A stretch of DNA of 38,277 nt from a virus, in the IMG/VR virus record IMGVR_UViG_3300035703_000206, positions 1 through 38,277 of that record, one strand, 5' to 3'. A program made the position numbers and the translations under genes. Under the pieces are notes generated by a model. It had not been told where the DNA came from, did no database searches, and saw only the letters and a program-made list of their open reading frames with translations. Shown here one piece after another: positions 3,099 to 22,772 of this stretch. The first letter of the stretch is position 1. Each line of letters opens with the position of its first letter.

Positions 3099-3569
3099 TT
3101 AAGTAATAATTACTTCTATTTCATTATTTTTCTTTTCTTCTGGCTTGATTTTTGGTATGGTTATATTAACAATACCATTGTCAAACTTTGCATTTATATT
3201 TTTGACATTCAATTTAGACTCATCAATATAAAATACACGTTTGAAGAATGAACGCTTTAATTCTTTATAAATATACCTACCACCGTCTTTGGGTTCGGTA
3301 TTATCCGCTTTTTTATTACCAGATATAACCAACGCACCCTCTGATACTTTTATAGAAATATCATCTTTATTAAGACCTGGTATCTCTGCTATAACGTGAT
3401 ATGAATTATCATATTCAATAACATCACACTTTGGGTATGAACCAGACGTAGTTATCCCAAGTTCCCGTGTAGTCTGTGGGAACATATCCTTAAACATTCT
3501 ATTTGCGATGTCATCAAATGATCTAAATATATCATTAGCATCTACGTATCTTTCAACACCAAATTTCAT
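3099..3569 (-). CDS. hsp20: Small heat shock protein, Hsp20/alpha-crystallin family
   Basis: 156 residues, typical for the family. The N-terminal arm (NDIFRSFDDIANRMFKDMF) precedes an alpha-crystallin domain starting at about residue 45 (YPKCDVIEYDNSYHVIAEIPGL) and ending in AKFDNGIVNITIPK, the family's A-x-x-x-n-G-v-L signature. A charged tail ending in IEVIIT resembles the I-x-I oligomer-docking motif. Such ATP-independent holdases are known in T4-like marine phages, where a scaffolding or protease-adaptor role has been proposed. The start has a strong AGGAG 7 nt upstream, one of the best ribosome sites in the window. The leader contains two hairpins and the gene has its own terminator, so it may be a single-gene transcript. 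Confidence 0.95.
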   Translation of the reverse strand: MKFGVERYVDANDIFRSFDDIANRMFKDMFPQTTRELGITTSGSYPKCDVIEYDNSYHVIAEIPGLNKDDISIKVSEGALVISGNKKADNTEPKDGGRYIYKELKRSFFKRVFYIDESKLNVKNINAKFDNGIVNITIPKIKPEEKKNNEIEVIIT

Positions 3570-3600
3570 AGTTTTACTCCTGTTTTGGTTTATTTGTTAC

Positions 3601-3652
3601 ATTACCCCGTTGGGGTCAATGTATAAATTCAATCCGAGTTTCGGCATTGAAT
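3601..3652 (-). promoter_or_regulatory. Two stem-loops in the hsp20 leader
   Basis: Between the upstream stop and the hsp20 start lie two hairpins. The first (3627-3652) pairs ATTCAAT/ATTGAAT and CCGA/TCGG with one unpaired G. The second (3601-3620) pairs ACCCC/GGGGT plus ATT/AAT, also with one unpaired G. Both close on the triloop AAC when read on the minus strand. Neither is followed by a T-tract, so they are not standard terminators. Neither clearly sequesters the AGGAG at 3577-3581. Confidence 0.5.
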
Positions 3653-3670
3653 ATTATAATAAATATCTAA

Positions 3671-4138
3671 TTATTTAAAATCACATATATCTTTAGAACA
3701 AAGTGATCTATATAAAATTTCAATTTCCTCTTCGCTGAAGCAAATACCTAAATCAAAAAAGTCGTGAAGTTGAACAAAGTATTGTCCTTTTTTTAGACCA
3801 TTTATTTTTTCATTAGAAAGCGATGAAATTAAAACTGGACAACCATTATTTAAATCTAGTTCAGATTCTCTTGGTAATTTTAAAATCCAGTAATATGCAT
3901 CTTCTGCATCCTCGGCACCAAAATTATCATCAAACTCATCCCCATCATCGTCGTCATCATTCATAAATTCTACAAAATCTGTATTGGGGTCATCATCATC
4001 TTCAAATTGATAAAATAAGTTATTATCATCAGTTATGTTAATTCTTTCCCATTTTTGACGAATGAATGTCTCATCTGTAATTGGGGTTAATCCCCAATCT
4101 ACAACCGGTATTTCTGTAGTATTATCATTTAATGCCAT
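3671..4138 (-). CDS. Acidic hypothetical protein, 155 aa
   Basis: The start is ATG at 4138. The sequence is very acidic, with runs EDDDD and NDDDDDGDEFDD between residues about 45 and 75, which are probably disordered. A folded C-terminal half contains NGCPVLISSLSNEKINGLKKGQY and ends in DICDFK. No signal peptide or membrane segment is present. The acidic region could mimic DNA or bind metal or basic partners, but nothing else supports that. It stands alone between PhoH and Hsp20. Confidence 0.7.
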   Translation of the reverse strand: MALNDNTTEIPVVDWGLTPITDETFIRQKWERINITDDNNLFYQFEDDDDPNTDFVEFMNDDDDDGDEFDDNFGAEDAEDAYYWILKLPRESELDLNNGCPVLISSLSNEKINGLKKGQYFVQLHDFFDLGICFSEEEIEILYRSLCSKDICDFK

Positions 4139-4198: not shown

Positions 4199-4996
4199 TT
4201 AAATATCATTGTTATTAATAGAATCTAAAATTTCATACGTATTGCGCTCACCAAGATCTATAATTTCATCCCCTTCATACGTTTCTAATATTCGTTTAAC
4301 AATACCACTTCTAACACAATCAGCTTTACCAAATTCTATTTGGTATACTCCTTCAACTCCACCAAATCTATTCCATACATCATAAAATCCACTTTTAGTA
4401 TATGCCGGTGATCCGTTAACTCTATACTTATCGGTCTGTGACAAGTCACCCTGAATAATCAATTTAGAATCGTCTGATATTCTAGTCGCTAAAGTTTTAA
4501 GCTGAAGTGGTGAAGTATTTTGCGCTTCATCTAAAATAATATAGCACTTTTCAAAATTAACACCTCTTAAAAAATTTAATACTCTAAATTCTAATTTTTT
4601 CTTTGCTATCAACTTTTCCATTTCAGGTTCACCTATAATTTTTTTTAAAATAAAAAACGCTGAATCATTATGGTATGAAATCTTTTCCATTAGGTCACCT
4701 GGTAAAAATCCAAGTTGATCTTCATTACCTACACTGACTGTTGGATTGATTATAATTAATTTATTAATTTCAGATTCTTTTGAATATAAGAATTCTAAAC
4801 CTTTATGTATTGACGCGTATGTTTTACCAGCACCTGCTAGTGCGTGTGCCATTATAATTCTATTATCTGTGTGCTCTATAGCTCTATAGAATCTTTTTTG
4901 GTTTTTTGTTTTAAATTTAATTTTATTTAGTAGTTTAGGAATTGAACTTTCAGTTAAAGTTTCATCAGTTTGTGTTGTTATGTTCTTTTTTGGCAT
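4199..4996 (-). CDS. phoH: PhoH-like P-loop ATPase
   Basis: 265 residues. Walker A is GAGKT at 55-59 in the context MAHALAGAGKTYAS, and Walker B is ILDEAQN at about 154-160, followed by SPLQLKTLATRI, the typical PhoH continuation. Also present are NPTVSVG and LGFLPGD, and QGDLSQTDKY near residue 185. These are characteristic of the PhoH superfamily (NTPase, helicase superfamily 1-like fold), which is common in T4-like and marine phages. In bacteria it belongs to the phosphate-starvation regulon; its phage role is not settled, with RNA metabolism suggested. No long N-terminal PIN domain is present. Confidence 0.92.
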   Translation of the reverse strand: MPKKNITTQTDETLTESSIPKLLNKIKFKTKNQKRFYRAIEHTDNRIIMAHALAGAGKTYASIHKGLEFLYSKESEINKLIIINPTVSVGNEDQLGFLPGDLMEKISYHNDSAFFILKKIIGEPEMEKLIAKKKLEFRVLNFLRGVNFEKCYIILDEAQNTSPLQLKTLATRISDDSKLIIQGDLSQTDKYRVNGSPAYTKSGFYDVWNRFGGVEGVYQIEFGKADCVRSGIVKRILETYEGDEIIDLGERNTYEILDSINNNDI

Positions 4997-5027
4997 ATTT
5001 GATAATTTTATTTTTTATTAAAAAAAC

Positions 5028-5354
5028 CTATGACATATCATTCAATATATCTCTAATTACTGCACATAACTCATATTCTTCTTCATCAATCAACCACTCC
5101 ATTGCTACGTTTAAAAAATTTACATAGTCACTTTTATAAACAACAATAACTATTGTTGATTTTTTTAGAGTGAATAATGTAATAACATCTGTATTTTCTT
5201 TTATAGATTTTAAAATTAAATCTATTGCATACTTAAAAATTTTAGTACCGTGTTTTTCCAAAAAGAAATTTGCAACTGAATGATAGTCTTTGGATAAATA
5301 ACGTTTCCAGTCTAACGTAGAATATGTTTTAAATGTTGTATGGTTTAATTCCAT
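5028..5354 (-). CDS. Hypothetical protein, 108 aa
   Basis: Begins MELNHTTFKTYSTLDWKRYLSKDYHSVANFFLEKHG. It is mixed alpha/beta with a LFTLKKSTIVIVVYKSDYVNFL segment and an acidic end (DEEEYELCAVIRDILNDMS). It ends 32 bases before the phoH start, so the two are probably co-transcribed. No motif or family is recognised. Confidence 0.65.
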   Translation of the reverse strand: MELNHTTFKTYSTLDWKRYLSKDYHSVANFFLEKHGTKIFKYAIDLILKSIKENTDVITLFTLKKSTIVIVVYKSDYVNFLNVAMEWLIDEEEYELCAVIRDILNDMS

Positions 5355-5413
5355 AAAAATAATTATTTAATGTTTAAATTAAAAAGACTGATAAATACAA
5401 ATAAAATTTATTT

Positions 5414-5581
5414 TCATTTAAAAAATAAAAATAATTTTGAAAGTAAAATGATTGATAAAATCACTATAATATAGAATAATATTACTTTTTTATTTGATTT
5501 TTTTAAGCCTAAAATTCTTCTATTGACAAAGTGACCGATCCCAAGTTTGCTATATTTTTTGTAAGAATTTATTTTCTTCAT
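5414..5581 (-). CDS. Small single-span membrane protein, 55 aa
   Basis: An open frame from ATG 5581-5579 to TGA 5416-5414. The first 30 residues are basic (MKKINSYKKYSKLGIGHFVNRR, then GLKKSNKK) and the rest is a single hydrophobic segment (VILFYIIVILSIILL) ending in a short KLFLFFK tail. By the positive-inside rule the N-terminus would be cytoplasmic. There is no good Shine-Dalgarno, and the AT-rich composition makes chance ORFs more likely, so confidence is moderate. Confidence 0.45.
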   Translation of the reverse strand: MKKINSYKKYSKLGIGHFVNRRILGLKKSNKKVILFYIIVILSIILLSKLFLFFK

Positions 5582-5695
5582 ATTAGGTTTTGTTAAAATT
5601 TGTTAAATTTATGTTAAAATATTTATTATTTTAAACGTTTTAAATATTTCTATATATGTATATATAACTAACTACTTAATACTTAAACAGTACCC

Positions 5696-5767
5696 AGTTA
5701 ATAATTAAAAAGTATATATTAATTAAATTATAAGTTAATAATTAAAAAGTATATATTAATTAAATTA
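5696..5767. repeat. Perfect 35-bp direct repeat, AT-only core
   Basis: The same 35 bases, starting AGTTAATAATTAAAAAGTAT, occur at 5696-5730 and 5733-5767, a period of 37. The second copy includes the last codons and stop of the gene ending at 5760. On the minus strand each copy contains ATATATACTT, sharing eight bases with the recurrent ATATACTTATAT element. The surrounding gap 5582-5759 is nearly pure A/T with no other gene; it could hold promoters or an origin. Confidence 0.85.
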
Positions 5768-5978
5768 ACCATTTATTAATTGGACACTTAGATGAAATAT
5801 TAATAACTTTACTATTTAAATAACAGTTACATTTATTACATATACTTATATCATTTTCTTTATTTCTATATTCACATAAAAAACAAACAGATAGCCGCAT
5901 AGCAGCTATCTGTGATTCTCTCTCATTTGAATATAATTTTATAGAAAATTCTTTTTCTATCTTCTTATATTCAATCAT
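5760..5978 (-). CDS. Small Cys-rich zinc-binding-type protein, 72 aa
   Basis: After a helical N-terminus the last 40 residues carry CFLCEYR, ICNKCNCYLNSK and SSKCPINKW: six or seven cysteines spaced as in small phage proteins resembling the DUF6171 family, which end in a CPxxKW pattern. It probably binds one or two zinc ions; the partner is unknown. Its ATG overlaps the stop of the preceding gene (ATGA), a sign of coupled translation. Confidence 0.7.
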   Translation of the reverse strand: MIEYKKIEKEFSIKLYSNERESQIAAMRLSVCFLCEYRNKENDISICNKCNCYLNSKVINISSKCPINKWLI

Positions 5979-6175
5979 TTATTAATTTTCATTAAAATGT
6001 GTTCTAATTCATTTTTGACGTGCTGGTTTACCTCTTCAATTGGAATGGATCCACCAAGTGGTTTTTTGGATGGTGATAGTCTATAAAAACTAACCCCATC
6101 GTATCCAATGTGACCATTATCAAGATAAATCATTCGTGCTAATCTATTATTTACAAAGTTATTTCTATTTTTCAT
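5975..6175 (-). CDS. Hypothetical protein, 66 aa
   Basis: Begins MKNRNNFVNNRLARMIYLDNGHIGYDGVSFY, then SPSKKPLGGSIPIEEVNQHVKNELEHILMKINK. A short beta region precedes an amphipathic C-terminal helix. It lies 27 nt after the metallophosphoesterase and overlaps the zinc-type gene by four bases. No family is recognised. Confidence 0.6.
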   Translation of the reverse strand: MKNRNNFVNNRLARMIYLDNGHIGYDGVSFYRLSPSKKPLGGSIPIEEVNQHVKNELEHILMKINK

Positions 6176-11988: not shown

Positions 11989-12060
11989 TAGACTCGCTAG
12001 GAATCGAACCTAGAATCTCGGTTTAGAAGACCGACGTTATATCCATTTAACTACGAGTCC
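11989..12060 (-). tRNA. tRNA-Arg (anticodon UCU)
   Basis: A complete cloverleaf reads on the minus strand: acceptor GGACTCG/CGAGTCT (first pair G-U), D stem GTTA/TAAC, anticodon stem TCGGT/ACCGA with loop CTTCTAA giving anticodon TCT, variable loop GATT, T stem CTAGG/CCTAG with loop TTCGATT, discriminator A. CCA is not encoded. It would read AGA, a codon favoured by this AT-rich genome, and is a plausible substrate of the phage RNA-repair enzymes. Confidence 0.95.
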
Positions 12061-14639: not shown

Positions 14640-15218
14640 TTAAAGTAATGATAAATCAATTTCTTCATTATCATTTTTATTTTGTGTTTCAGTTTCAATT
14701 CTTGTTTTTCTTCCGTGTATATTTCCAACAAGTAAAAAATAACAATTGTAGCATAGTAATCTAAGGTTTTCCCATTTATGATTACTTTTATTCCCATCTA
14801 TAAAGTCAAGTAGTAAAGGTATTTTATTATCACTAATTCTCCTTTCACAAAATCCACAATTGGAGCACTCTGCGTTTATGTGCCTACCACTAACTAATCT
14901 ATCTTTAAGCAATTTAGGTGTATATGTTGGGTGCTCCCCATCTAATACATCATTTAACTTTTGCTCACTTTGCGTTGTAATTTTTGATGCTCCACTCCTT
15001 ACTCGTTTTCTTTCAATAATGTGTGGAACATCATATAAGTTACAATATTTTTTGTATGTTTTATAGACAACACCTAAAATTCTGGCAGCGTGTGCAGAAG
15101 ATGTTGCACGCGACTGCGCCTCAATTAATTCAGTTTTTAAAATGGGAGAATATCCCAAAAACCTTTTCTTTGTTTTTAGTGACTGACCATCATTGTATAT
15201 TCTGTAATCATCTTCCAT
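14640..15218 (-). CDS. HNH-like zinc protein, 192 aa
   Basis: The N-terminal half includes a predicted helix-turn-helix (RATSSAHAARILGVVYKTYKKY). The C-terminal half has CSNCGFCE, then LLLDFIDGNKSNHKWENLRLLCYNCYF: the two CxxC zinc pairs and DGN-x-N-x(4)-NLRLLCxNC of phage HNH proteins. The final His of the usual CxNCH is Tyr and the catalytic HH pair is not obvious, so nuclease activity is doubtful. It may be a DNA-binding regulator rather than a homing enzyme. It heads a run of small genes. Confidence 0.7.
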   Translation of the reverse strand: MEDDYRIYNDGQSLKTKKRFLGYSPILKTELIEAQSRATSSAHAARILGVVYKTYKKYCNLYDVPHIIERKRVRSGASKITTQSEQKLNDVLDGEHPTYTPKLLKDRLVSGRHINAECSNCGFCERRISDNKIPLLLDFIDGNKSNHKWENLRLLCYNCYFLLVGNIHGRKTRIETETQNKNDNEEIDLSLL

Positions 15219-16351: not shown

Positions 16352-17740
16352 TTAAAAACCTGTGCTTTTAGGTTTATTGTATCCATTTATTTCCGCATAT
16401 TTATTAAATAATAATTGCTTCTCTATTTTTTCACCATCCTTTGAATCTTTCATCGCCATCATTCCATTAGGTGATGTGTTTTCAAATATGCGAATCATAC
16501 CAATGTTAGTGTCCATTTTAGCCGGAAATGTTAAACCATCTGGACCAAAACGATTTTTCATTACGTGAAACCTAGCTGTATTATTTATTTTGTCGCTAGG
16601 TTTTCTCATTAATGACATTACAAAATCGGCATTCATAATTTTAGCGTAGCTATCGGCAATTGAATCGGCCTCTATGATTTCGTTTTGTATAGATGAGCGA
16701 TTTGCTTGACTAGCTGTCCATATGGGTATGCCATATTCACCAGATAAACCACGCAATTCAATATAAACATTACCTGCTTCTTGATATGTGGAATCCGACG
16801 TCACATAATGTGACCTCAATAGATCTGCATAATCAATAATAATTAAGTCTGGTTTATATCCCGTTTGTATTAATTTATCAATGTGTGTTTCTAGCTTTTT
16901 GGTAGTAATACCTTTTGGTGGAAAATACTTTATAATTACATTACCTTTAATAGATTTCAATTTCTGCACAACCTCTTCTTGCTTATCTTTAAGCTCGTGC
17001 GGTGTAATGCCAGATAAAATAGTATCATATCGTCTGCCCACATATGTTTCAGACAGCTCTAAAGTATAATGAACTACATTTTTACCTTCCTTCATTGCGT
17101 GCGCACCAATCTGTGATAATACCCAAGATTTACCAATACCAGATGCAGCAACAATTACTGCCAATTCACCACCGGATAAACCGCCATCCATTAAGTCGTC
17201 AATAGGTTCAAAGCCAGTGGGTACGGTATCTCTGGATTCATCTTCCATTCTTAGCAATACATCATTTATATAATTATGGCCAATATCAGCAGATGTTCCA
17301 ATTTTCATTGCATTATCTACCAACTCTTTTATTTTATTGTAATTACCAGCTTTGAGTAAATCGACTGATTGTAAAATAACTTCTTTTAGATTTTGATTTC
17401 TACAAAAATCTGAAAACTCTTTTTTTATAAAATCTAAATCAACATTCCCAACCTCGGTGTATATATGCCTAAGCTGGTCTTTAACTGTTGTTTTTAAAAT
17501 TTTATTATCGGTTCTATTCAATTCAACTTTAAAGACATCTAATGTTGGTAGTTTTTTATAGTCATTGTAATACTTTAATATAGTGTTTACAATCCATTTA
17601 TTAGATTCGGATTCAAAAAAATCTGGTTTTATAATATCGACCAATGACTCCAACAATTGACTATCGCTTAATAATGCAGATAGTGTTTTAGATTGGAAAC
17701 TTTGACCGTATTTGCTTAAGCTATCAAATGAATCACTCAT
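16352..17740 (-). CDS. Replicative DNA helicase, DnaB/T4 gp41-like
   Basis: 462 residues, the usual size. The N-terminal helical domain (about 1-150) is followed by a RecA-like core: VPTGFEPIDDLMDGGLSGGELAVI, Walker A AASGIGKS (198-205, with Ala where the first Gly is usual), LELSETYVGRRYD (motif H1a region), Walker B DLIIIDYADLL, GIPIWTASQANR (motif H3, Gln sensor) and ADFVMSLMRKP with the C-terminal Arg finger region. It unwinds the lagging strand template at the phage fork. It overlaps the exonuclease gene by 8 nt, so SSB, UvsX, exonuclease and helicase form one replication operon. Confidence 0.93.
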   Translation of the reverse strand: MSDSFDSLSKYGQSFQSKTLSALLSDSQLLESLVDIIKPDFFESESNKWIVNTILKYYNDYKKLPTLDVFKVELNRTDNKILKTTVKDQLRHIYTEVGNVDLDFIKKEFSDFCRNQNLKEVILQSVDLLKAGNYNKIKELVDNAMKIGTSADIGHNYINDVLLRMEDESRDTVPTGFEPIDDLMDGGLSGGELAVIVAASGIGKSWVLSQIGAHAMKEGKNVVHYTLELSETYVGRRYDTILSGITPHELKDKQEEVVQKLKSIKGNVIIKYFPPKGITTKKLETHIDKLIQTGYKPDLIIIDYADLLRSHYVTSDSTYQEAGNVYIELRGLSGEYGIPIWTASQANRSSIQNEIIEADSIADSYAKIMNADFVMSLMRKPSDKINNTARFHVMKNRFGPDGLTFPAKMDTNIGMIRIFENTSPNGMMAMKDSKDGEKIEKQLLFNKYAEINGYNKPKSTGF

Positions 17741-18782
17741 ATACTATAGTATTAAATGTATCTTTTAACCATAGCATCATATTATCCCAACCATTTGTTA
17801 TTTTATATTTTGATGCCGTTTTCATAAATAGGAATTTATCCAATGGTTTTACCATTTCATTATATCTATTTAATATTTTTAGTTTAAAATCAGTAGCTAT
17901 ATCAACATTTGATAATTGCATAATTTTATAATTTCTATAAAATATATCCTTATTTTGTATTATATCAAAATAAATTTTATATTTTTCAGTTTTGCTTTTA
18001 GTATCACATAGTTCAATGAATTCTTCTAGTGATATTAATTTATCTTCACACAATTCTGGAAACCTTTTTATCAAGGTTTTTAATCCACAACCTTTAATAC
18101 CTGGTACATTATCTGATACGTCGCCGTCCAATGACCTGAATATGCAAAAGTTCTGTGGGTATATACCATACTCATCAAACACTTTATGTCTATTATAAAT
18201 TACTTTTTTAGTGGGTGAATATAAAATAGTAGTTGGACTAATCAATTGTAGAAAATCTTTATCGGTAGACATTATAACACATTGTTCTTCTTTTTGTATT
18301 AGATTTGTTGCAATATAAGCTATTACATCATCCGCTTCAATTCCATCATATACCATAGTCGTTACTGGTAAATAATTTAAACAATCTATTAGTTGAACTA
18401 TTTGAGTGCGCATAGACTCACGCTCTTCATCCTCACTCAATAAATTATCATATTGACGATTTACTCTAAATCGTATAGCTCCACGATCTGACTTGTAACC
18501 TTCGTATATTTTTTTTCGGTCATTTGAACCTTTCTTTCCATCGAATACTAAGATAACACGGGTTGGTTTAACTTCACGTATAATATAGCCAATAGATTTT
18601 AAAAACCCAGTTATACCACCGATATGATTACCATTATCGTCCATTTGTGGATTGGTCGTCCAAGATCGTATAAAAGTATTCAACGAATCAACTATTAAAA
18701 CTCGTGAGTTTCGTAGCCGACTCGTTGAATTTTTATGATCCTTTTTTACCTCATTTAAAATATTTAGGTATAATTGGTTCAT
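17733..18782 (-). CDS. 5'-3' exonuclease, T4 RNase H/FEN-like
   Basis: 349 residues. Metal-binding acidic motifs of the FEN family are present in order: VLIVDSLNTFIRSW near residue 30, RVILVFDGKKGSNDRK, YDGIEADDVIAYIAT, VIMSTDKDFLQLI, and DGDVSDNVPGIKGCGLKT, the helix-hairpin-helix region. In T4 this enzyme removes RNA primers from Okazaki fragments. The ATG overlaps the uvsX exon 2 stop (TAATG), so translation is probably coupled to the recombinase C-terminal cistron. Confidence 0.92.
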   Translation of the reverse strand: MNQLYLNILNEVKKDHKNSTSRLRNSRVLIVDSLNTFIRSWTTNPQMDDNGNHIGGITGFLKSIGYIIREVKPTRVILVFDGKKGSNDRKKIYEGYKSDRGAIRFRVNRQYDNLLSEDEERESMRTQIVQLIDCLNYLPVTTMVYDGIEADDVIAYIATNLIQKEEQCVIMSTDKDFLQLISPTTILYSPTKKVIYNRHKVFDEYGIYPQNFCIFRSLDGDVSDNVPGIKGCGLKTLIKRFPELCEDKLISLEEFIELCDTKSKTEKYKIYFDIIQNKDIFYRNYKIMQLSNVDIATDFKLKILNRYNEMVKPLDKFLFMKTASKYKITNGWDNMMLWLKDTFNTIVYE

Positions 18783-19222
18783 TAGTCAATTTCATTTACA
18801 TCATCTATTACAAGTTCACCAACATCAATTTCTTCTTTTCGATATTGTAAAATTGTAGCATCGCAAATTTTAGAGTATATTTGTTCTCTTAATGCATTTC
18901 TATTGGTTAGTATTTCTACAAAGTCTTTGGACTGAAATTTTATTTCTTCACCAGTTTCAGTATCAATATAAGTATACCAAGCTCCGGCTTGTTTAAGCAA
19001 TCCACTATCCTTTAAAACCTGTAACCAACTACCATAATTATCAATACCACGATCAAATAGTATATCAAAATCTGCTGATCTTAATGGCGGACCCATTCTA
19101 TTTTTAATAACCTGTGCCCTGACCTTAATACCAACAATACGTTCATTATTACCGACTTTAGCTTTTATTGTCCCCATACTTTTTAACCTAATACGAACCG
19201 ACGAGTGAAATGCAAGTGCTTT
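18782..19222 (-). CDS. uvsX: UvsX/RecA recombinase, exon 2 (C-terminal part)
   Basis: 146 codons from the predicted 3' splice site to TAA. It begins KALAFHSSVRIRLKSMG, the RecA region right after the TTSGG of loop L2, and continues with MGPPLRSADFDILFDRGIDN, matching the RecA/UvsX C-terminal core, then an acidic tail (VGELVIDDVNEID). The frame also runs upstream for 17 codons to an ATG at 19273, but those codons are intron sequence (P9 region) and not homologous to RecA. Joined to exon 1 after splicing, it completes the second uvsX cistron. Confidence 0.9.
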   Translation of the reverse strand, partial: KALAFHSSVRIRLKSMGTIKAKVGNNERIVGIKVRAQVIKNRMGPPLRSADFDILFDRGIDNYGSWLQVLKDSGLLKQAGAWYTYIDTETGEEIKFQSKDFVEILTNRNALREQIYSKICDATILQYRKEEIDVGELVIDDVNEID

Positions 19223-19259
19223 CAATTTTGTTACCGTATAGTCATTTAAACTATACTTC

Positions 19260-20126
19260 TTATAGTTTCCCATAAGTTCGGACTATATCTTTATCAAATT
19301 TACTTATTATAGACAAAACATTAATTTCACTTATATCAGATTCAAAAATATGATAAACATTATAACCATAGCTAGTTATTATTTTATGCCTAATCCGATC
19401 GGATTCCCATACAGATTCTGCTGATAATAATCTATTTCCTGGATATTTTATTAATTCGTTTTTATCATATTTAGATGGATTTGCGTGCCAATAATCACCA
19501 TCGGCTTCAATTATTAAATTGTAGTCAGGTAAATAAAAATCTACATATATCCCAGGAATTTCATCAAATTGATGAATATATTTAATATTGTTAGAATCTA
19601 GTATGGTTTTAATCATACGTTCTGGCTTTGTATTTTTACTACCACCTGGTATTTTATTTTTTTTACTCCAATTTAATAAACGTAAATCAGCTTCATCTTT
19701 TCCATATTTATCAAACCAACGTTGCCAATTAGATTTTTTATAGTGATGATGATCTTTTCCTTTTATAGAAGTAAACATAACTTTAAATTTATCGGGAAAT
19801 TGTCTAACCACTTCTTTCATTCGTTGACTTTGATTTAATTTATAATCATCACGCTTTACAGCGTTACGAGCTGAATTTTTACGTTTTTCAGAATCCTTCT
19901 GAATACTTTGCTGATATTTAAAATGCTTTTTGTTTTCTTCGGAGTATATCCAATTTGATAATATTTCAAAGTGATTATCGGAAATCATCTTTGAATTTGG
20001 AAATCTTAGTTTATACTCTTCAGTTTTCATATTATGTTTGTGTTTAAGATGTGAATTAGTTATAGATTTAAAAAAATTACCACATAATTCACATTTCAAT
20101 AAGTTAGCTTGATAATCGGTACTCAT
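19260..20126 (-). CDS. Vsr-like (EDxHD-type) homing endonuclease in the intron
   Basis: 288 residues. An N-terminal C2H2-like finger (CELCGNFFKSITNSHLKHKH) is followed by a basic helical linker with NUMOD-like repeats (SARNAVKRDDYKLNQSQRM). The C-terminal nuclease domain runs from about 165: NTKPERMIKTILDSNNIKY, then PGIYVDFYLPDYNLIIEADG and DYWHANPSKYDKNE, with predicted catalytic Glu, Asp and His typical of Vsr-fold homing enzymes such as I-Bth0305I. Its last codons (KDIVRTYGKL) overlap the S element of the intron, so protein and ribozyme constrain the same bases. It probably cuts intronless uvsX alleles. An ATATACTTATAT element 16 nt before the ATG may give it its own promoter. Confidence 0.88.
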   Translation of the reverse strand: MSTDYQANLLKCELCGNFFKSITNSHLKHKHNMKTEEYKLRFPNSKMISDNHFEILSNWIYSEENKKHFKYQQSIQKDSEKRKNSARNAVKRDDYKLNQSQRMKEVVRQFPDKFKVMFTSIKGKDHHHYKKSNWQRWFDKYGKDEADLRLLNWSKKNKIPGGSKNTKPERMIKTILDSNNIKYIHQFDEIPGIYVDFYLPDYNLIIEADGDYWHANPSKYDKNELIKYPGNRLLSAESVWESDRIRHKIITSYGYNVYHIFESDISEINVLSIISKFDKDIVRTYGKL

Positions 20127-20142
20127 GTCACTTTCTTCTTTA

Positions 20143-20154
20143 ATATAAGTATAT
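20143..20154 (-). promoter_or_regulatory. Candidate promoter element before the intron endonuclease
   Basis: The exact 12-mer ATATACTTATAT, also seen at 36571-36582 and 14138-14149, ends 16 nt before the endonuclease ATG and is followed by an AAGAAGAAAGTG ribosome region. No -35 box is evident. Independent expression inside the intron would parallel the late promoter of T4 I-TevI. Confidence 0.4.
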
Positions 20155-20389
20155 ACTATTATGAAAAGTTAAGTCCTTTCCCAATTTACATTTTATTATA
20201 TGTAAAGATTACTAATGTTAGTCTCTGAACCTCCAACTCATTACTAAGAAGTTTGGCTGCTGATTGTCCAATCTTTTAATTTTTTAAACATTCACACTGT
20301 CCATTACTGAATATGTTGTAGTATAAAAGCTCTAAGGAGTTTCCAGCAATTCACCGATTTTTGTTATAGCGGAGGCAAAATTAGCTAAT

Positions 20390-20767
20390 ACCACCGCTTG
20401 TAGTATTATGATTTACATAACCATTTGCAATATATCGCTCTGTATCTGTAACCGTAATATCCACAACGTTCATTTCTCCGTTCATTTTAACAGCATTTGG
20501 ATGATCTTTTAACTTAATAAAATCAGATCCTTCTAATACTCTATGATTTGAAGTTCCACGTAAATCACCAAGTTGATAGTATTCACCTACCTTTGGCTTT
20601 ACCATAAAACTTTCAATATCTTTAAATACCAAATTACCATCCACGTTGGTAGATTCAACTTGTAACCCAGACCAACTTAAATCATAAATTTCTGGATTAT
20701 CTAAATTCATATCTAATATGGATGCCAATTCAAACATCGTCATTTCCTTTTCTATTGTATTATTCAT
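20390..20767 (-). CDS. uvsX: UvsX second cistron, exon 1: C-half of split intein plus TTSGG
   Basis: The ATG at 20767 overlaps the stop of the first cistron (ATGA). It codes for the 121-residue intein C half, then the extein residues T-T-S-G-G, after which the group I intron begins. Without RNA splicing, translation would run into the intron and stop after two more codons (I, S, TAA at 20383-20381). After splicing, the cistron encodes 121 + 5 + 146 residues. The extein pentapeptide is the conserved RecA L2 TTGG/TTSGG motif. Confidence 0.9.
20405..20767 (-). other. Split intein C half (IntC), 121 residues
   Basis: Intein block B is GTSNHRVLEG (about residues 70-79), block F is VVDITVTDTERYIANGY and block G ends in VNHN, with the penultimate His and terminal Asn needed for C-terminal cleavage. 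The +1 extein residue is Thr, an allowed nucleophile. It has its own start codon. Its length, with the very short partner, matches atypically split inteins, which break soon after block A. Confidence 0.9.
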
Positions 20768-21933
20768 TTAACACCTCTTTCTATTTTGTTATGGAATTCT
20801 TTATAAAATTCCGAATCTGTATTATATCGTATTTTAATTTTGGTTGTAAATGGATCAACACACCACGGATCTGCAAATGGCATAGCATTCATTTTTTGAC
20901 GTAACTGATTGGTAAATATTAATGTAATCTTTTCTCTACCGATCATATTAGTAATCTTACGCATTGCCTTGGATATAATAATAGCTTTATCCGTTGCGTA
21001 ACCATCTTTATCGTAATCGGATGCCAATTCTTTTTTTGTAGAAACTGCAGCAACAGAATCAACAACAATCGTTACTAATTTATCCTTTGAAGAAGTCCTA
21101 ACTTTTTCAATTATGTTTTCAATATATTCAAAAACATCTTCAACTGAATCTGCTTGAACATATAATAATTTAGCAACATCAACTCCAATTGCGTCTAAAT
21201 ACTCACGACTAACCGCCATTTCAGTATCAATCAAAACTGCAACACCACCTTGTCGTTGTGTTTCAGCTAAAACGTGTGCAGATACCAAAGATTTTCCAGA
21301 GTTATGATTTAACATACCATTTCCAAAATATGAATGATCTTCACTATCAACTTCAATATCAACGATTGGATATTTACCAACATACTCAAACGATATTACT
21401 GAATAATATTGATTATCGTCACATAAAATTTTGGTTGATCCAAGTTTAAGCTTATCAAACGCAACCCAACCTTGATTTGTAAAAAATCTATGTTTACTAG
21501 ATACCTTTATGCTATAATCATTACTCAATGTAACTTTATATGTGGGTAAAATACCCTTTTCAAAGTAACTTTTTACTTTTACATATTCATCATTTATAGT
21601 TTTTACTTTTATCGTTTTACCGGCTTTAAGTAAAGATTTTATCTCACTTATTTTTATTTTTTCTTTTTTCATTTCAATTATAACATCAATAATTGTATCT
21701 TCGGTAACACATTGTTCCAAACCCGTTAACTCGGATATTCTACCAATGGGAAACCCACCATTCGCTCTGTTTGATATTGCTAAATCTAACATAGATGCTC
21801 CACTTGATACCCAGCCAATAACATTGGCTGGAGTATCATCGGAGTCCAAAAAGAATGCAACCTTTTGATCTTTAGCAGTTTTATTTAACGATTCTGCTAG
21901 AATATCTGCTAAATCAATTTCTTTTTTTGACAT
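20764..21933 (-). CDS. uvsX: UvsX/RecA recombinase, first cistron, with P-loop intein and IntN
   Basis: 389 residues: extein 1-74, intein 75-211, extein 212-357, split-intein N half 358-389. The extein reads SELTGLEQ-SGKSLVSAHVLAETQ across the Walker A, then AVLIDTEMAV, YVQADSVEDVFEYIE, VTIVVDSVAAVSTKKEL (Walker B) and TLIFTNQLRQKMNAMPFADPW, all canonical RecA/UvsX. It lies 20 nt after the gp32-like gene, as expected for a replication operon. The complete recombinase after all splicing would be 371 residues, close to RecA (352) and T4 UvsX (391). It polymerises on ssDNA for strand exchange and recombination-dependent replication. As written the P-loop is broken, so activity depends on intein removal. 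Confidence 0.95.
   Translation of the reverse strand: MSKKEIDLADILAESLNKTAKDQKVAFFLDSDDTPANVIGWVSSGASMLDLAISNRANGGFPIGRISELTGLEQCVTEDTIIDVIIEMKKEKIKISEIKSLLKAGKTIKVKTINDEYVKVKSYFEKGILPTYKVTLSNDYSIKVSSKHRFFTNQGWVAFDKLKLGSTKILCDDNQYYSVISFEYVGKYPIVDIEVDSEDHSYFGNGMLNHNSGKSLVSAHVLAETQRQGGVAVLIDTEMAVSREYLDAIGVDVAKLLYVQADSVEDVFEYIENIIEKVRTSSKDKLVTIVVDSVAAVSTKKELASDYDKDGYATDKAIIISKAMRKITNMIGREKITLIFTNQLRQKMNAMPFADPWCVDPFTTKIKIRYNTDSEFYKEFHNKIERGVK
20767..20862 (-). other. Split intein N half (IntN), 32 residues
   Basis: It begins at Cys (CVDPFTTKIKIRYN, block A), directly after DPW of the RecA core, and ends at GVK-stop. Block A alone is present; block B is on the other cistron. At 32 residues it is among the short N halves. 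The insertion position in RecA, before TTSGG, joins cleanly to the C-half extein. Confidence 0.9.
21301..21711 (-). other. Mini-intein in the UvsX Walker A loop, 137 residues
   Basis: Block A is CVTEDTIIDV with Cys1, block B is VSSKHRFFT, block F is PIVDIEVDSEDHSYFGNGM and block G ends LNHN, followed by the +1 Ser of SGKS. There is no endonuclease domain between blocks B and F. Its excision restores G-L-E-Q-S-G-K-S, a standard GxxxxGKS P-loop. All residues for cis protein splicing are present. Confidence 0.95.
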
Positions 21934-21953
21934 AATTTATATTATTTATATTA

Positions 21954-22772
21954 TTAATCGCCAAACAAATCATCAAATGCATCAACTACATCTGCAATTT
22001 TTGTTTTAGTTGGTGTGATTGGAGTATTTAAAGATTTAGAATCATCATTATTCCAAACATCATCATTATCTACATTTCTTTTAGATGGTGGTGGTGTAAT
22101 ATCGTTATTTTCATTTGACGATGGATTTAACCAACCTTCTAAAATATTACTTAATTCTTGATATGATAATTCTTCGTATAGATCTGATATATTAGTTTGT
22201 AAGGTCAAATATTGTTCTAATTTTTCAGCAGATTCCGATAGTGGTGTTTCTTTTGGTTTAATCCTAATTGTGGTAACTGGATAAGATGTTCCACTTTCTT
22301 CTGCTGATGTAATTTCAACAACGATATCTCTACCTGTAATTGGATCTGTGATATCACCATAGTCAGGATCTGCAATATATGCCAATAATTCCTGATATAC
22401 AGTTTTACCAAATCCCCAAAATCTAATACCTTCAGATTCTTCACCTCTAATTAATACAGGAACGTATGTTCTTAATTTGGGTTCCATTCTCTTACCAGCT
22501 TTCCATTCGTCTTTGCTTCCCATACGTTTTAATTTATCGGAAAATTCAACGATTGGATCTGGTCGACCAAACGAAATTGGTGATAAATAAGTTTTATTAT
22601 TTATACCATAGTGAAAATATAACTCAATGAATGGATTATCTTTATTATGAGTATATGGTACAATTCTTACTTGATATTTACCTGGTTTAGGTTTCCAAAA
22701 CTCTGCGGTTTTGATTGTTGTATTTTTTAATGAATTCAACCTGTCTTTGATTGACTTTAAATCTATTGCCAT
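21954..22772 (-). CDS. Single-stranded DNA-binding protein, T4 gp32-like
   Basis: 272 residues. It begins with the gp32-type basic N-terminus (IDLKSIKDRLNSLKN), then an OB-fold core with WKPKPGKYQVRIVPY, ELYFHYGINNKTYLSP, RMEPKLRTYVPVLIRGEES and GIRFWGFGKTVYQELLAYIAD, GDITDPITGRDIVVEI. A low-complexity Asn/Asp/Pro linker leads to the acidic tip VVDAFDDLFGD, the typical protein-interaction tail. The T4 zinc-binding Cys/His cluster is not seen. It coats ssDNA for helicase, polymerase and UvsX, whose gene follows by 20 nt. The Shine-Dalgarno AAAGGA overlaps the end of a repeat array. Confidence 0.92.
   Translation of the reverse strand: MAIDLKSIKDRLNSLKNTTIKTAEFWKPKPGKYQVRIVPYTHNKDNPFIELYFHYGINNKTYLSPISFGRPDPIVEFSDKLKRMGSKDEWKAGKRMEPKLRTYVPVLIRGEESEGIRFWGFGKTVYQELLAYIADPDYGDITDPITGRDIVVEITSAEESGTSYPVTTIRIKPKETPLSESAEKLEQYLTLQTNISDLYEELSYQELSNILEGWLNPSSNENNDITPPPSKRNVDNDDVWNNDDSKSLNTPITPTKTKIADVVDAFDDLFGD

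Follow-up and report, generated by a model that had tools for sequence, protein, structure and literature searches.

Three predicted splicing elements in one phage uvsX gene, with a split intein that may travel with the neighbouring intron

Here, we describe a RecA-type recombinase gene, uvsX, in the IMG/VR virus record IMGVR_UViG_3300035703_000206, the 38,277 bases of which are referred to below as the window. The gene is broken at three conserved sites: by an intein in the P-loop between GLEQ and SGKS (site A), by a split intein between DPW and TTSGG (site B) and, 15 bp downstream of the latter, by a group I intron with an endonuclease reading frame (site C). The joined pieces, 371 residues in all, match RecA (E 7e-52), with Pfam RecA covering both uvsX pieces, and also match the phage UvsX structures 9gbg and 3io5. 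The middle extein has 82-88% identity to its relatives, and the C-terminal exon has 337 relatives. When the joined chain is compared with about 150 UvsX genes from environmental phages that lack interruptions, it aligns as one tblastn segment with no insertion at the three sites, and these genes can be read as natural empty alleles for sites A, B and C. The locus had been read once before from its letters alone, and in this original prediction the reading frames, junctions and coordinates were exact to the base; its claim that the pieces constitute one recombinase is borne out by the database search. An ATG-initiated open reading frame (ORF) running from the intron interior into the last exon (18782-19273) was rejected because its frame is broken in two related alleles, L135 and L214.

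Table 1. Features of the uvsX locus and its neighbours (window coordinates).
Feature	Position	Strand	Description	Evidence
Broken uvsX/recA gene	21933-18782	minus		Reading frames and junctions
UvsX N extein	21933-21712	minus	74 aa; GLEQ end is the first half of the P-loop	Collinear with uninterrupted UvsX
P-loop cis mini-intein (site A)	21711-21301	minus	137 aa; CVTED...SSKH...NHN before S	
UvsX middle extein	21300-20863	minus	146 aa; SGKS...DPW, Walker A end and RecA core	Pfam RecA E 3e-32
Split-intein N half (site B)	20862-20764	minus	32 aa; CVDPF...GVK and stop 20766-20764	
Split-intein C half	20767-20405	minus	121 aa; GTSNH block B, ...VNHN before T	
TTSGG exon	20404-20390	minus	15 nt; 3' end 20398-20390 is the 5' strand of P1	
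Predicted group I intron (site C)	20389-19223	minus	1167 nt; ends ...UUG	Fold, covariation, Rfam RF00028 in sister introns
Putative intron homing endonuclease	20126-19260	minus	288 aa; zinc-finger-like N terminus, EDxHD/Vsr domain (EADGDYWH)	Pfam Vsr; 3r3p
UvsX C-terminal exon	19222-18782 (coding to 18785)	minus	146 aa (KALAFHSS...EID) and stop	Pfam RecA E 5e-11
gp32-type single-strand binding protein	21954-22772	minus	Upstream neighbour of uvsX; replication/recombination cluster	Pfam gp32 E 1.8e-11; phrog_1192
5'-3' exonuclease gene	17733-18782		uvsX neighbourhood	
DnaB-like helicase gene	16352-17740		uvsX neighbourhood	

The element at site A matches Pfam Intein_splicing at E 1.1e-6, which is below the Pfam cut-off, and inteins in the PDB at E 2.7e-5; its AlphaFold2 model (predicted local distance difference test, pLDDT, 96) has the VidaL intein as best PDB match, with a template-modelling score of 0.89, and among isolated phage records only distant inteins match it. 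In 13 relatives (L224, L225 and L227-L237) the intein is split after 13 or 14 residues (CVTEDTLIDVIIE followed by a stop), as in L224, where the N half lies at 4076-4114 and the C half at 4424-4798. The gap between the halves measures 1.1-1.3 kb and holds a large open frame in 7 of these alleles, and measures 77-306 nt in the other 6, several with ORF remnants. The site-A intein is contiguous in L226 and L239/L240, where the joint has no methionine. In the window, the joint reads CVTEDTIIDVIIE followed by MKKEKIKISE (residues 13/14, IIE followed by MKK), as against CVTEDTLIDVIIE, a stop and then MSIIKQIKISE in L219, and the joint methionine coincides with the C-half start of L219/L224 (two labels for one allele, as are L226 and L216). 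The P-loop intein of the window thus looks like the descendant of a split intein that was later re-fused. In L237, the ORF in the site-A gap (4907-5986) weakly matches phage endonuclease I and PD-(D/E)XK families, and the endonuclease type between the site-A halves is not the EDxHD type of sites B and C.

At site B, the intein is divided between two cistrons, with the C-half ATG overlapping the stop of the first cistron by 4 nt (ATGA) in the window; a Shine-Dalgarno-like AGAGG lies at the 3' end of the N half, ahead of the second ATG, and a similar stretch precedes that ATG in L135 and L084. The N half is conserved in L135, L084, L214 and L219. The cistrons overlap by more than 4 nt in L135 and L084 and are separated by a 1-nt gap in L214 and L219, both halves being open in all of these. 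Since overlap length and frame vary while the halves stay open, the split is a maintained one, and a frameshift between the cistrons or an assembly error was rejected as its source. Between L214 and L219, the ratio of non-synonymous to synonymous rates (dN/dS) is 0.14 for the N half and 0.15 for the C half; both are under purifying selection in this pair. The same intein is contiguous in L211/L213 and L230. The contiguous L211 member, when modelled, adopts an intein fold (pLDDT 95.4) with inteins as top PDB matches (E 5e-5 and weaker), and the site-B family is accordingly assigned, on this model, the Hedgehog/intein (HINT) fold. Cys1, the block B His, the block F Asp, the C-terminal His-Asn and a Ser/Thr/Cys at +1 are conserved in the alignments of both inteins. 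Having separate ORFs and a short N half, site B classes as an atypically split intein for which trans-splicing is predicted. A search of 50,697 isolated phage records did not turn it up, nor did a search of prokaryote genomes with the C half return a match. In L222 and L223, the stretch between the site-B halves contains a short tandem duplication together with an apparent C-terminal remnant of an EDxHD-type endonuclease; the two contigs are otherwise nearly identical, with a 41-column deletion difference between the split-intein halves (L222, 10372-10477; L223, 894-958, minus strand).

The fold of the element at site C comprises P1 with a terminal U.G, P10, P4-P7 and P9. The 5' exon ends in GGU, the last intron base is G and the 3' exon begins AAAG. 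The guide GCCUCCGCU (20376-20368) pairs with the exon end AGCGGUGGU (20398-20390), with the U.G at the splice site and one internal U-U mismatch, and exon and guide change together in L135, L084, L214, L219, L160 and L242. P10 can form between AAAG(C) of the 3' exon and the bases preceding the guide; the window has no more than three to four such pairs, L160 has AAAG/CUUU and L135 has AAAGC/GCUUU. Across seven alleles, RNAalifold together with a count of pairs yields 56 pairs (97.2% paired), of which 18 are changed on both sides; this was equalled by 0 of 500 shuffles, and sliding the partners abolishes the signal. Two sister introns score above the RF00028 cut-off of 50 bits, that of L242 (about 1356-1766, 411 nt) with 60.6 bits and that of L219 (about 3321-3746, 426 nt) with 54 bits. 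Both have lost nearly all of the endonuclease ORF, the former in an intron-only allele and the latter in an allele interrupted at all three sites. The P1/P10 pairing, the compensatory changes and these sister matches together fix the predicted intron boundaries, and with the P1 U.G, the P7 core, the terminal G and P10 all present the element is assigned by sequence to the group I introns. An in-frame stop (20383-20381) occurs soon after the intron start, and every intein-bearing allele inspected has one within two to four codons of the intron start, so ribosomes should leave ahead of the ribozyme core.

The intron ORF, the 3' end of which overlaps the P7/J8-7 core (KDIVRTYG), matches Pfam Vsr at E 5e-6, slightly under the Pfam cut-off, and its best PDB match is the homing endonuclease I-Bth0305I (3r3p, E 1.6e-4). 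It is 52-61% identical to four intron relatives, and neither E207 nor G210-H214 (GDYWH) varies among five relatives. The Vsr-like domain and acidic/His motif mark it as an EDxHD homing endonuclease whose cleavage is predicted only. Motifs, folds and covariation support the three elements named in the original prediction, a P-loop mini-intein, an atypically split intein and a group I intron; the 3r3p match supports the Vsr-like endonuclease of the latter.

In related uvsX alleles these elements occur alone as well as combined. All three sites are occupied in the window and in L219, the latter having a split P-loop intein and a decayed intron endonuclease; sites A and B, without the intron, in L216, L228, L230 and L237; sites B and C, where split intein, intron and endonuclease recur together, in L135, L084/L085 and L214/L218; and site C only in L160 and L242. 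A 27-base signature of the intron 3' end, searched for regardless of inteins, was found in 8 contigs, 6 of which also have the split intein; elsewhere, inteins at site B are uncommon, given that UvsX matches number at least 588. Common descent makes this association look stronger than it is. Earlier work reportedly names split inteins of UvsX in lake metagenomes, and fractured genes, intron-borne EDxHD endonucleases, atypically split inteins and an intron plus an intein in one phage gene are each already known. We found no description of a triple stack or of an intron-carried split intein in the literature searched, which many subscription papers lie outside. That the stacking had been called unusual agrees with the precedents consulted, which combine at most an intron and an intein, but the triple stack is not confined to the window, recurring as it does in L219. 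One further uvsX, that of L237 (4633-8692), comprises five ORFs, with two fractured inteins that each have an endonuclease-like ORF.

One trace of movement comes from the two intron-only alleles. Between L160 and L242, identity runs from 76% in the upstream gene through 82, 88 and 93% to 99-100% in the intron, which is non-coding, and then through 93, 78 and 64 to 58%; synonymous differences are 0.62, 0.42 and 0.31 before the intron and 0.24, 0.57 and 0.74 after it. This peak has the pattern left by homing with co-conversion. In the pair L214 and L219, the proportion of synonymous differences (pS) is 0.28 in the intein halves, as against 0.50 in the exteins upstream (p 0.001) and 0.70 in those downstream (p 1e-8). 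With an intron identity of 95-97%, these values would place the intein within the intron's tract. The split inteins adjoining the intron form one clade (support 100/99.9), and in none of the five intron-adjacent alleles does an endonuclease lie between the halves, in contrast to four intron-less alleles (L215, L216, L228 and L237), where the site-B intein is split around an EDxHD-type endonuclease gene and the N half is 15 aa long. Intron and split intein, 15 bp apart, therefore look like one mobile unit.

We consider it probable, at roughly 0.78, that the window carries the sole uvsX seen in a T4-like phage contig, that homing parasites have colonised its three conserved sites and that the intron endonuclease carries the split intein. 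In this scheme, the transcript would lose the group I intron by self-splicing, and ribosomes on unspliced RNA would stop after two intron codons, ahead of the ribozyme core. ORF1 (389 aa) would supply the N extein, the P-loop intein, the middle extein and the split-intein N half, and ORF2 (121 + 5 + 146 aa once spliced), reached by re-initiation at the ATGA overlap, would supply the C half and the C extein. The P-loop intein would excise in cis, and the split-intein halves would associate and ligate the two chains between DPW and TTSGG to give the 371-residue UvsX. Three interruptions and a gap-free reconstruction support the original prediction that three splicing chemistries would be needed for a single chain. 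The intron's EDxHD endonuclease would cut intron-less uvsX close to the junction of GG and K, and repair would copy the intron with its flanks; the split intein, 15 bp off and without an endonuclease of its own, would travel with the intron because the repair tract takes in these flanks. That an endonuclease-less split intein has been spread in uvsX by the neighbouring group I intron's endonuclease, with a re-joined P-loop intein beside it, we would put at even odds.

Several observations weigh against this account. The window's own intron gave no RF00028 match in an Rfam scan at E up to 10, probably because of its 0.87-kb endonuclease insert. The tract test for the intein used a single allele pair, picked after the data had been seen, and the endonuclease tree is not strong enough to demonstrate transfer. 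At site A, a contiguous ancestral state, with a minimum of three changes, would offer an alternative to re-fusion. The extein tree scatters the intron-bearing alleles, and an approximately unbiased test does not reject a single extein clade for the five alleles with intein and intron (p 0.29), a result that agrees with the view that each element colonised its conserved site independently and that split intein and intron were then inherited vertically together, without hitch-hiking. The finding of every element on its own also agrees with that view, which we nevertheless regard as rather unlikely: it sits poorly with an intein synonymous divergence in L214/L219 below that of the exteins on both sides, with an identity peak in L160/L242 that is centred on the intron, and with the single clade of intron-adjacent inteins.

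The remaining alternatives concern what the elements do. Insertions at the P-loop and TTSGG should block activity until splicing, and conditional splicing is reported for other inteins (PMC7360933); the three steps could then be control points that time active UvsX, for instance for recombination-dependent replication late in infection. This seems improbable to us, as about 150 close relatives do without any element, patchy distribution and endonuclease decay fit parasites, and no feature supporting regulation by splicing was found in the locus. Endonuclease loss, identity tracts and patchy distribution together fit elements that are homing parasites rather than dedicated regulators. T4-like phages do provide precedents for the products of split genes assembling non-covalently, in split NrdA (Aeh1) and split gp43 (phage 25) (PMC2988022); the same for ORF1 and ORF2, without ligation, is very improbable given intact, conserved intein termini and motifs, the purifying selection seen in L214/L219 on the N and C halves alike, and unspliced inteins that would occupy the P-loop interior and adjoin TTSGG. 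Hardly credible is a decaying uvsX pseudogene in a phage served by another recombinase: the exons are all open, there are near intact relatives, the ratio of non-synonymous to synonymous differences between the window and L135 is 0.16 in the middle extein, and related records of 203-369 kb hold no second RecA. The genome is known only as a fragment, though, and a second recombinase could lie outside these 38 kb, which also counts against the window gene being the only one. A second intact recA or uvsX, a possibility named in the original prediction, did not turn up in the window or in any of 19 related records (up to 369 kb). Each of these records has one gene or one gene's pieces, and splicing is for this reason probably essential.

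In 2009, Dassa and colleagues reportedly described fractured genes that combine split inteins with EDxHD/Vsr-like endonucleases, the endonuclease family being said to occur in group I introns as well. As in those genes, a phage replication/recombination gene is here broken by a split intein, and L215, L216, L228 and L237 have the identical layout at the same UvsX site. The window differs in that no free-standing endonuclease gene lies between the halves, which overlap by 4 nt, in that the endonuclease sits in the intron 15 bp downstream, and in the third element in the P-loop. I-Bth0305I, which reportedly resides in a group I intron within recA of Bacillus phage 0305phi8-36, shares its catalytic family and intron-borne location with the window endonuclease; only the nuclease domain aligns (residues 165-238), the N-terminal region of the window protein being zinc-finger-like, and we know of no split intein neighbouring it. 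This EDxHD enzyme (annotated in 3r3p as Mobile intron protein) has a target near 60 bp (PMC3943268), and a target of about that length would span sites B and C.

In Bacillus phage SPbeta, nrdE has a group I intron and an intein in one gene (PMC3653736), so that there too one phage enzyme requires RNA and protein splicing, but with two elements rather than three and with no mention of trans-splicing; crAss-like phages are rich in both introns and inteins (PMC7886860). Atypically split inteins have N fragments of 25 aa in AceL-TerL, 37 in GOS-TerL, 16 in VidaL and 15 in PolB16 OarG (PMC13014065, PMC11766414, PMC10189870). They share with the uvsX inteins a very short N and a long C fragment, and VidaL is the top structural match of the P-loop intein; the site-B N half has 32 aa, whereas those of the site-A relatives, at 13-14 aa, fall under the quoted 15-37 aa range. 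Neighbouring inteins in haloarchaeal MCM, both with active endonucleases, hinder each other's homing (PMC10643990). Here again two homing elements lie near each other in one conserved gene, but in the window only the intron keeps an endonuclease and the tracts point to joint transfer.

The gene would thus be a natural example of an essential phage enzyme that cannot form unless RNA self-splicing, cis protein splicing and trans protein splicing each work. Homing of T4-type introns requires UvsX (PMC2988022), so a badly splicing parasite would end its own spread. With alleles that are empty, have a cis intein, are fractured with or without an endonuclease, have the intron or are triply interrupted, the series allows tests of how gene breaking arises and is reversed. 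Since the shortest characterised natural N half has 15 aa (PMC10189870), the 13-14-residue P-loop N halves would undercut this record and could be useful in protein labelling.

Elsewhere in the window, the T4-type replication genes all point one way. An HNH endonuclease ORF at 14640-15218 may be an additional free-standing homing endonuclease. A 434-aa ORF at 24874-26178 matches only the C-terminal part of the DNA polymerase family phrog_17 (positions 954-1210 of 1445), the remaining part of such a polymerase not having been located within the window, and a tRNA gene lies on the minus strand at 11989-12060 (Rfam, 68 bits).

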